Positions 897-7,524 of a DNA stretch of 64,000 bases are shown here, piece after piece. Position 1 is the stretch's first letter, and the number at the start of each line of letters is the position of its first letter. The position numbers and the translations under genes were made by a program. The stretch is from Synechococcus sp. Cruz-7E5 (GTDB lineage Bacteria > Cyanobacteriota > Cyanobacteriia > PCC-6307 > Cyanobiaceae): NCBI RefSeq assembly GCF_024345995.1, contig NZ_JAGQCE010000001.1, positions 434,001 through 498,000 on the forward strand, given 5' to 3'. The notes below the pieces were generated by a model that worked only from the letters and a program-made list of their open reading frames with translations, did no database searches and was not told the origin of the DNA.

Positions 897-968
897 AAAG
901 GGGTGAACCGCCGTGCCGTCTTGCCCCAGTGTTCGACCTGGTAGTACCAGAGGGGTGATCAAAGTGGG

Positions 969-990
969 GCTTCGTTTCCGGCAACGAGGC
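969..990. terminator. Hairpin between convergent DUF2103 gene and purK
   Basis: The 193-base gap between the two convergent genes (897-1089) shows no ORF I trust. It contains an 8-bp stem, GCTTCGTT paired with AACGAGGC (one G-T wobble), around a six-base loop. It could act as a terminator for either gene, but no clear T-run follows, so the call is tentative. Confidence 0.3.
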
Positions 991-1089
991 CGGTGTACGT
1001 CACCGTCACGACAGACCACCCACGTCGAAGAGGGAGTCAGATCAGAAAACTGTGAAAGGCAGTCACCAACACAGCAGTCCTCGCAAACT

Positions 1090-5238: not shown

Positions 5239-6441
5239 GTGTCGGCCCCGGTGATGATCCCCGCGCTTTCGATCGAGTCCACCGGGGCCGCCGGCCCAAC
5301 GGCAACCGCCGGAGCAGCCGGTGCTGTCAACCCCATCCACACGATCGAGGTGGCCCTCAGCAGCCAGCCTTACCCCGTGGTGATCGGCGCGGGCAGCCTC
5401 GATCAGCTCGGCGCCCAGATCCGCTCCAGGGGAATGGCGGCAGCCACCAAGGTGCTGGTGGTGACCAACCCGGTGGTGGAGGGCTTCTACGGCCTCAGGG
5501 TGCTCGAGAGCCTGCGCCAGGCGGAGCTGGATCCCAGCCTGCTGGTGCTGGATGCGGGGGAAGATCAGAAAACACCCGCCAGTGTGGCTCTGATCCATGA
5601 CGTGGCCCAGGCCCGGCGGCTGGAGCGGAGCTCCCTGATCGTGGCCCTCGGCGGCGGGGTGATCGGCGACATGGCGGGATTTGCCGCCGCCACCTGGCTG
5701 CGCGGCATCGCGGTGGTGCAGGTCCCCACCACCCTGCTGGCGATGGTGGATGCCTCGATCGGCGGCAAGACCGGGGTGAACCACCCCGGCGGCAAGAACC
5801 TGATCGGGTCCTTCCACCAGCCACTGCTGGTGCTGATCGATCCAAGCACCCTGGCCACACTGCCGGAGCGGGAATTCCGAGCGGGCATGGCCGAGGTGAT
5901 CAAGTACGGCGTGATCGGTGATCCCCAGCTGTTCAGCGAGCTTGAAGCCGCCGAAGACCTCTCCAGCCTCAAGTCGGTGGGCGACACCCTGCTGCCCTGG
6001 CTGCTGGAGCGATCCGCCGCAGCCAAGGCTCGCGTGGTGGCCGCCGATGAGCGCGAAGGTGGCCTGCGCGCCATCCTCAACTACGGCCACACCCTTGGCC
6101 ACGTGGTGGAGACCCTCTGTGGCTACGGCACTTACCTCCATGGCGAAGCAGTGGCGCTGGGGATGGTGGCGGCCGGCGACCTGGCGGTGGCCATGGGCCT
6201 CTGGAGCCCGGCCGATCAGCAGCGGCAGTGTGACCTGATCGCCAAGGCCGGCCTCCCCTTGCAGCTGCCGCCCCTTGAACCAGAAGCCGTGCTGCGCACC
6301 CTCCTGAGCGACAAGAAAGTGAAAAGCGGCCAGGTGCGCTTCGTGCTGCCCAGCGAGATCGGCAAGGTGCAGATCCACAACGACGTGGGGGCTGATCTGA
6401 TCCGTGAGGTGCTCAGCTCAGGCAGCCCCAGGCCAGAGTGA
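5239..6441 (+). CDS. aroB: 3-dehydroquinate synthase
   Basis: AroB catalyses the second step of the shikimate pathway, cyclising DAHP to 3-dehydroquinate using NAD and a divalent metal. Visible motifs are [16 protein letters not shown] (NAD loop), [27 protein letters not shown], and the metal-ligand histidines in [11 protein letters not shown] and [11 protein letters not shown]. It is 400 residues, about 35 more than usual at the N-terminus (an Ala/Thr/Gly-rich stretch). The GTG at 5239 is used; an ATG at 5254 is an equal alternative. It lies 19 bases after recQ on the same strand. Confidence 0.95.
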
Positions 6442-6509
6442 ACAGGCGCCTTCGTCCTCGCTCTCCAGGGGGGCCATGCTGGGGAGCCATCGCGCTCGGC
6501 CCGCCCGCC

Positions 6510-6725
6510 ATGTCCCAGGAGCAACTCAGGGCCTTCCTCGCCAGGGTTCAGGACGATGGCGAACTCAGGCGGCAGGTGCTGGGTGCCTCCACCGCCGATG
6601 ACGTGGCCAGGATCGCCGCCTCCCTGGGCTTCGATGTCTCCGGAGACGAACTGCTGCGGGCCTCCGGCAAGCGCATCGGCAGGGTGACGATCACCAAGCA
6701 GGACATGCCAGGCGAGTACAACTGA
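6510..6725 (+). CDS. Nif11-domain small protein without a core peptide
   Basis: This 71-residue protein begins MSQEQLRAFLARVQDDGELR and continues with TADDVARIAASLGFDVSGDEL, the pattern of the Nif11 (nitrogen-fixation Nif11/leader) family. In marine picocyanobacteria such domains act as leader peptides of lanthipeptide (prochlorosin) precursors. Here there is no double-glycine cleavage site and no Cys/Ser/Thr-rich core; the chain ends ITKQDMPGEYN. So it is a free-standing Nif11-like protein of unknown role. No maturase or peptidase/ABC exporter is adjacent. The ATG at 6510 is chosen because the family begins there. It follows aroB by 68 bases. Confidence 0.82.
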   Translation: MSQEQLRAFLARVQDDGELRRQVLGASTADDVARIAASLGFDVSGDELLRASGKRIGRVTITKQDMPGEYN

Positions 6726-6840
6726 CGGCTGTTCTGTTGTTGGAATCCGGATAAATAATTGGTTCGGGATTTGATGATGAATCCAGATGCAAAGATGGTG
6801 CTGGATCGGCATGTCACGATGACGATGCCTTCGGGCAGGG

Positions 6841-6903
6841 GCCTGGGGTGGTGGTTCACTCTGGGCCCTTCCACCTATCAGCCGCTCCGGCGGCGCCCCA
6901 GGC
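6841..6903. other. Structured intergenic segment (nested inverted repeats)
   Basis: The 190-base gap between the convergent Nif11-like and DOMON-like genes has no convincing ORF. Its right part holds GCCTGGGG (6841-6848) and its exact complement CCCCAGGC (6896-6903). These enclose an inner hairpin, GCCGC-TCCG-GCGGC (6881-6894). The left part (about 6735-6790) is unusually AT-rich for this genome. It could be a terminator or a small RNA; only the pairing is seen directly. Confidence 0.35.
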
Positions 6904-6915
6904 CAGGGACGCTGA

Positions 6916-7524
6916 TCAGAGGCGCAGCAGCAGGCCATCGCGCCTGTGGAAGTCGGCTTCATCGCCGGGATGGGTAAGGGCCCAGTAGCTGAGCTGCCCT
7001 TGGCGTTGCTCGATCACCGCACACACTCCGACCTCAAGGCATGCTTTTGCGGCGCGAAGGTCGTCAGGCAGCGGCCAGGCCAGAGCCAGCTCGATCGACC
7101 CGGGCACAGACTTGAATTCGAAGGGCAACGCCTGCAGGCAGGGCTCGTTCTCCATCCCCTGGCGGTAGCTGCTGAAGCGGTAGACGTTCCAGTGGCCAGT
7201 GGGCGAAAGGTTCACTTCCCTGTACACCGGCTCACCTGCCGCCGCGATGAACAGCTCGAAACAGGTGCTGCGCCAGAGATCATCCCGGCGCTCGGGCCGT
7301 GATGAGGGCGCAGCCAGCACCACCGACGCGAGATCACCGACCAGGCGCATGGCCAGCTCCAGGGTCCCCGCCCGCCGCCGGATCTGTCCCGTCAGCTCCA
7401 GGCCAGTTCCAGGGCCGGCAGGGCCGGAGACAATCGGGCCTGCCGGTTCACCTTCAGGCTGGAAGGGATGCAGGACAAACGACTGCCAGGCCACCTCAGG
7501 GTGCTCTGGGCAGGGTGCCTTCAT
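6916..7524 (-). CDS. DOMON-like domain protein
   Basis: This 202-residue cytosolic-looking protein is of a beta-sandwich DOMON-like type. Recognisable features are a beta-rich profile, the DDLWRSTCFELFI segment near residues 80-92, the YREVNLSPTGHWNVYRF stretch, and a C-terminal HPGDEADFHRRDG motif. Members of this group are conserved hypotheticals thought to bind a heme or sugar ligand; that is family inference only. Its start overlaps the stop of the upstream kinase-like gene by four bases, so the two are translationally coupled. No signal peptide or membrane segment is visible. Confidence 0.7.
   Translation of the reverse strand: MKAPCPEHPEVAWQSFVLHPFQPEGEPAGPIVSGPAGPGTGLELTGQIRRRAGTLELAMRLVGDLASVVLAAPSSRPERRDDLWRSTCFELFIAAAGEPVYREVNLSPTGHWNVYRFSSYRQGMENEPCLQALPFEFKSVPGSIELALAWPLPDDLRAAKACLEVGVCAVIEQRQGQLSYWALTHPGDEADFHRRDGLLLRL

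Follow-up and report, generated by a model that had tools for sequence, protein, structure and literature searches.

The nif11 gene at positions 6510-6725 (+ strand) of a 64,000-nucleotide stretch of the Synechococcus sp. Cruz-7E5 genome (positions 434,001 to 498,000 of contig NZ_JAGQCE010000001.1, hereafter the window) encodes a small Nif11-domain protein that, in our judgement, is very likely not a peptide precursor. The protein belongs to a family with an invariant PGEY end (the PGEY family), and the label of precursor of a ribosomally synthesized and post-translationally modified peptide (RiPP) or peptide antibiotic is very probably wrong for this family. We propose, with a probability of about 0.5, that the protein is a complete small cytosolic adaptor or regulator whose Nif11 helices and invariant C-terminal tail together bind a partner protein. 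If so, it would provide a clear case of a Nif11 fold working without a core and would bear on the roles of this domain besides RiPP biosynthesis.

The gene is complete, running from the ATG at 6510 to the stop codon at 6723-6725, and encodes 71 residues. The Nif11 domain (PF07862) occupies residues 1-48 (6510-6653), scoring 58.9 bits against a curated cut-off of 23.8 (E 6e-16), and spans predicted helices at residues 2-15, 17-25 and 29-39 and the start of a fourth at 45-51. The following segment, residues 49-71 (6654-6722), lies where precursors hold the cleavage site and the core; it ends in ITKQDMPGEYN, with the PGEY motif at residues 67-70 (6708-6719). The translation contains no Gly-Gly cleavage site and no cysteine anywhere in its 71 residues, and its calculated mass is 7,751.6 Da with the initiator methionine and 7,620.4 Da without it. 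An in-frame GTG with an open frame lies 24 codons 5' of the ATG. Because single-base gaps break this longer frame in some same-genus relatives and conservation restarts at ATG 6510, 71 residues is likely the true length. The original prediction had described a free-standing Nif11 protein without a core peptide, and the intact gene, the domain match and the lack of Gly-Gly and cysteine bear this description out.

To a large extent, the length and the end of the protein are fixed in its homologues. Among 129 distinct sequences scoring over 60 bits, obtained from 182 loci, 118 are 71 residues long, counted from the first position of the model, and end in PGEY[N/S/H/T] (PGEYN 99, PGEYS 12, PGEYH 6 and PGEYT 1), although this tail-bearing share is an upper estimate because most of the loci were collected with tail-containing models. 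The first residue is Met in 111 of the 118, the remainder having Leu or Val codons, and the PGEY motif is invariant in all of them, which agrees with the earlier suggestion that this end is conserved. The tail follows the pattern SG..VTV..K.D.PGEY, with a consensus of VxVxKxDxPGEY followed by N, S or H. The other 11 sequences comprise one contig-edge copy, three PGEYWGN ends, one 70-residue copy (PGEYH) and six of a paralogue type. Cysteine occurs in only seven of the 129 homologues, and in none of these beyond residue 58. A truncated precursor or pseudogene might be suspected from the missing cleavage site and core; we consider it next to impossible, and rejected it, given the conserved length, the conserved end and a ratio of nonsynonymous to synonymous substitution rates (dN/dS) of 0.09. 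The finding that would have spoken against the original prediction, homologues all carrying a core with the window copy cut short, is thus the opposite of what was found. At L164, L166, L170, L174, L178 and L181, paralogues were seen whose tails are lengthened or changed (PGEYPGRY, SYSFGESGN), so that the tail has diversified to a limited degree.

The conservation of the tail is unlike that of a precursor core. Among the nine same-genus genes, dN/dS was 0.089 for the whole protein, 0.086 for residues 1-48 and 0.096 for residues 49-71, so that the tail and the domain are under the same purifying selection within the genus. In the 118-sequence set, residues 1-48 had a mean pairwise identity, unweighted for relatedness, of 66%, and residues 49-71 one of 74%. 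As a control, we used the Nif11 precursor loci of two same-family genomes with LANC_like (G054 and G037), retaining the 15 of 19 rows with a GG or GA site; here the leaders reached 59% and the cores 20%, and all 15 cores contained cysteine. Conserved leaders joined to variable cores are the usual pattern of Nif11 precursors. Since the identity and selection of the tail match those of the domain, unlike the 20% of the control cores, the tail is a fixed functional element and not a hypervariable core.

We further examined maturation enzymes in 99 related genomes, the genome of Cruz-7E5 included. This set was searched with the window protein itself, which makes it less biased toward the tail. The protein was matched in 49 of the 99, and in 47 of these (hereafter the carriers) the match extends to residue 70 or 71, whereas in G016 and G038 only the Nif11 domain is matched. 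All nine same-genus genomes, including that of Cruz-7E5, have a full-length match (90-100% identity), which together with the low dN/dS is well above anything that chance would give. The Cruz-7E5 genome has no match to LANC_like, peptidase C39, YcaO or SPASM and one match to PqqD, the search covering these five families. LANC_like was found in three of the 47 carriers, SPASM in 12 and PqqD in four, and carriage of the gene was not associated with any of the three (Fisher test over the 99 genomes, p 0.34, 0.82 and 0.53, respectively). In draws of 60 genomes, 27 carriers were scanned for all five families; YcaO was present in two and C39 in 16, where many matches were weak and lay within frames of about 1,000 residues, and eight carriers had none of the five. 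A lanthipeptide precursor was rejected because the protein has no cysteine and no Gly-Gly and no LANC_like enzyme accompanies it, and PQQ (pyrroloquinoline quinone)-like maturation because the SPASM and PqqD profiles are unlinked to the presence of the gene.

These counts also bear on the idea, raised in the original prediction, that the protein is a decoy leader, and on its relative, a leader supplied in trans to LanM-type enzymes. The leader domain is common to both kinds of protein and LANC_like does occur in three carriers, but it is missing from the Cruz-7E5 genome and from 44 of the 47 carriers, and the stretch that precedes the Gly-Gly of real precursors is replaced here by a different, invariant tail. 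We therefore regard this explanation as very improbable; as to the co-occurrence of PGEY homologues with LanM-type enzymes, which the original prediction named as a check, LANC_like showed no association with the gene.

PQQ and mycofactocin are cofactor RiPPs, and by analogy the tail might be a conserved core that is modified by an unlinked enzyme, perhaps at the invariant Glu-Tyr. The invariant G-E-Y end, a score above the cut-off of the precursor model TIGR03798 and the single PqqD match in the Cruz-7E5 genome would fit such a precursor. However, there is no Gly-Gly site and no cysteine, the four enzyme families searched besides PqqD are all missing from this genome, 35 of the 47 carriers lack SPASM and 43 lack PqqD, eight of the 27 fully scanned carriers lack all five families, and most loci have no adjoining enzyme gene. 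Thus, a precursor of this kind is improbable, and it is slightly less probable still that the tail is the substrate of an unlinked enzyme that makes a cofactor or signal from the Glu-Tyr end in most picocyanobacteria. If true, such a product would come from most members of a group that ranks with Earth's most abundant phototrophs.

Compared with the TIGR03798 precursors (prochlorosins and others; PMC2887384), the likeness of the window protein lies in a homologous helical domain over residues 1-51; it differs in lacking Gly-Gly, cysteine and a hypervariable core, in a genome without LANC_like, YcaO, C39 and SPASM. A closer counterpart is Nif11 group F of marine Synechococcus, a group of unknown function whose members, according to PMC10783134, start with MALDQL, carry a D/ELL motif and end in GEYH/N. 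Consensus sequences A1 and A2 of our family have all three features, and the window copy starts with MSQEQL. To the extent that the published motifs permit the comparison, the PGEY family thus appears to be group F and is hence already in print. Where that paper words the group F tail as a possible conserved core, the fixed tail, the absent enzymes and the varied surroundings reported here argue for a finished protein. Genome-mining counts in picocyanobacteria take in many Nif11 genes that lack prochlorosin features, as in 206 of 287 clusters of that paper. Our literature search, which left most subscription journals outside its coverage, found no experimental work on the PGEY family. Several published observations cannot be tied to the family: the response of four of five nif11-domain genes to nitrogen stress in Prochlorococcus MIT9313 (PMC2784084), an iron-responsive Nif11 transcript in Synechococcus (PMC9723758), unk10 (PMC3877281) and a 9,067 Da matrix-assisted laser desorption/ionization assignment (PMC8002600).

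Structure prediction gives a helical domain followed by a tail of low model confidence. The AlphaFold2 model, built from 71 sequences, has helices at residues 2-15, 17-25, 29-39 and 45-51 with a mean predicted local distance difference test (pLDDT) score of 74.1, and pLDDT falls below 50 at residues 58-66 and 68-71. In a profile search against solved structures, the nuclear magnetic resonance structure of the MppE Nif11 leader of Moorena producens (PDB 9zn4) was the one convincing match by sequence (residues 1-48, E 4.4e-7), the next match being at 0.073; MppE is a RiPP leader. The tail alone matched no PDB sequence. Because the tail is invariant yet has no structure of its own, it may be a partner-binding segment. 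We suggest that the protein would stay in the cytosol, that its helical domain would dock onto a partner protein and that the tail, which lacks a confident structure when modelled alone, would fold onto this partner, so that this small protein might serve as an adaptor or as the regulator of an enzyme. That it regulates a housekeeping enzyme is our guess from a parallel with PirA, NirP1 and AcnSP, small cyanobacterial regulators reported to bind and tune metabolic enzymes; the proposed likeness is one of mode only, and we claim no kinship.

The distribution of the gene offers a hint as to the nature of this partner. A second draw took in 388 genomes from the class, each at least 90% complete; of these, 129 matched at E<=1e-15, 82 in the same family (Cyanobiaceae) and 47 in other families. 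The 82 are out of 88 family genomes, a fraction that rests on six listed misses and assumes from the order of the list that unlisted misses fall outside the family; some of these genomes are only 1.6-1.9 Mb in size, and in four (G375, G390, G392 and G424) even the best match is weaker, at 75-80 bits. Relatives are encoded at 286 places in the genome collection; among the best 80 of these, 78 match residues 1-71 and two residues 1-70, and the closest named relatives include Synechococcus sp. J7-Johnson (identical), 1G10 (99%) and WH 5701 (96%). The gene persists in genomes of only 1.6-1.9 Mb and its surroundings vary widely, which makes it probable that the partner is a housekeeping protein whose gene lies elsewhere. 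The stand-alone regulator of the original prediction is still plausible, although no partner has been found for it. Its suggestion of an ancestral form of the leader is not borne out by a tree of 99 sequences, which groups five own-genus rows (95) and, separately, eight copies from outside the family with two metagenome-assembled genomes (MAGs) labelled Gammaproteobacteria (95); the tree has 71 columns and little resolution, and its midpoint root is arbitrary.

Several observations weigh against an adaptor or regulator. We found no partner, phenotype or expression for the protein, and of the 38 same-family genomes in the 99-genome set with a completeness of 90% or more, seven have no full-length match. 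The NCBIfam precursor model TIGR03798 scores 50.3 bits against a cut-off of 32.3, covering model positions 1-51 of 68 only; since four of the six other Nif11 proteins of the Cruz-7E5 genome also exceed this cut-off, TIGR03798 alone does not mark precursors. One of these other proteins (L004) has a leader-like LSDVELQHRAG followed by a 12-residue cysteine-free tail. The PDB entry 9zn4 ranks first in the Foldseek and VIA lists as well, but weakly (E 0.98; Z 4.0, root-mean-square deviation 4.0, 56 aligned), and all rows of the fold searches were weak, a result that does not speak against any relationship. The PqqD match, the wording of PMC10783134 by which the tail could be a conserved core and the collection bias of the homologue set belong here too. 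Among the genomic surroundings, RecQ-like and P-type ATPase neighbours recur between clades (13 of 83 loci each), and a protein of 129-147 residues without a Pfam match adjoins the gene in two distant clades (L148, 6276-6662 +; L084, 8216-8656 -), with 41% identity and in different orientations; from its position it is a possible partner of the nif11 protein. Moreover, the NtcA site GTAN8TAC was not enriched upstream of the gene, occurring in two of 131 upstream regions compared with 4.2 in shuffles.

Outside the family, the gene appears on Nostoc and Stanieria plasmids as well as on contigs of Nostoc, Pseudanabaena and others. The four annotated plasmid copies that we saw are all named natural-product precursor, and of three plasmid records inspected, one has the copy directly beside a protelomerase gene and two near insertion sequence (IS) transposases. 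Nostoc records, Pseudanabaena frigida and an uncultured Synechococcales genome share a DNA stretch that runs from about -137 to +215 or +245 at the gene with 90-97% identity, while their flanks differ. This near-identical stretch was found in L038, L039, L096, L102, L106, L110, L111 and L114 and measures about 350-430 bp (270 bp in L096). Several of these records are MAGs; a contig of Pseudanabaena sp. UWO311 that is not labelled as one has -55 to +215 in common with a Nostoc record at 96%. Pseudanabaena belongs to the Pseudanabaenales and Nostoc to the Nostocales, and the gene, together with its own 5' region, looks as if it spread recently between orders. We found no repeat or enzyme able to move the stretch, though no systematic search was made.

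This pattern raises the alternative of a mobile-DNA accessory gene, with a role such as plasmid maintenance or defence, that has become fixed in picocyanobacteria. The plasmid copies beside protelomerase or near transposases, and the shared stretch with unlike flanks, speak for such an origin. On the other hand, the gene is near-universal in one family and under strong purifying selection, no partner gene was seen travelling with the 350-430 bp stretch, 50,697 phage records gave no match to the protein at E<=1e-3, and no copy of the family was confirmed in viral contigs. We thus consider a mobile-DNA gene unlikely, though the most serious of the alternatives to an adaptor or regulator.

In the window, nif11 follows aroB (3-dehydroquinate synthase; 5239-6441, +), which ends 68 bases before it and is itself preceded by a RecQ-type helicase gene; on the 3' side lies a convergent gene at 6916-7524 (-) without a Pfam match. 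No neighbour family was common to most of the 83 loci compared, the widest within 5 kb being RecQ-like (13, in the same genus and others), P-type ATPase (13) and an unnamed family (11). When ten flanking proteins were compared with Pfam, no two of them had a family in common. The motif TAGGAAT was over-represented upstream (13 against 1.3), in the sequences listed mostly right before the start codon of non-Cyanobiaceae copies, and we draw no meaning from it. At 6473-6482 (+), about 27 bases 5' of the start codon, a block GCCATGCTGG is almost constant in the nine same-genus genomes and is a possible regulatory site.

Besides the window protein, the Cruz-7E5 genome has six further Nif11 loci. 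Five encode proteins of 54-86 residues without a GG-plus-Cys end, and the sixth is a Nif11-cupin (TIGR03890, 251 bits) with a GGG run and a cysteine, a different kind of protein. In other genomes, a further stand-alone Nif11 protein, 57 residues long and ending in SRWQRDHH, is encoded near the PGEY gene (L175, 6278-6475 +; also L141 and L113), and a 54-residue Nif11 protein encoded elsewhere in the Cruz-7E5 genome (L003) is somewhat like it.

Just 3' of nif11, at 6798-6879 (+), lies a two-hairpin RNA-like element, with a single match per genome in all nine same-genus genomes. A model of this element matched 23 of 121 family genomes, in seven of 37 genera, at E<=0.01, with G325 and G454 marginal. 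Across 15 copies, 95.9% of cells were paired and 16 cells were changed on both sides, neither value being reached in any of 500 shuffles; slid versions of the pairing gave at most three double-changed cells, and the compensatory changes are located in the long hairpin. Against an RNA reading, two of five measures lay within the range of the shuffles (51 and 88 of 500), the alignment had itself been adjusted to the model, and the wider stretch has an ordinary folding energy (z -1.5 on the + strand and -1.8 on the - strand). Rfam gave no match at 6798-6879 and none at six copies from other genera. The element may represent a small RNA or a terminator of unusual form. Because it directly follows aroB in G055, with no nif11 in between, it is independent of nif11; either nif11 and the element came together in the genus of Cruz-7E5, or nif11 left the genus of G055. 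Elsewhere in the window, a 6S RNA gene (Rfam RF00013) is present at 901-1083 (-).
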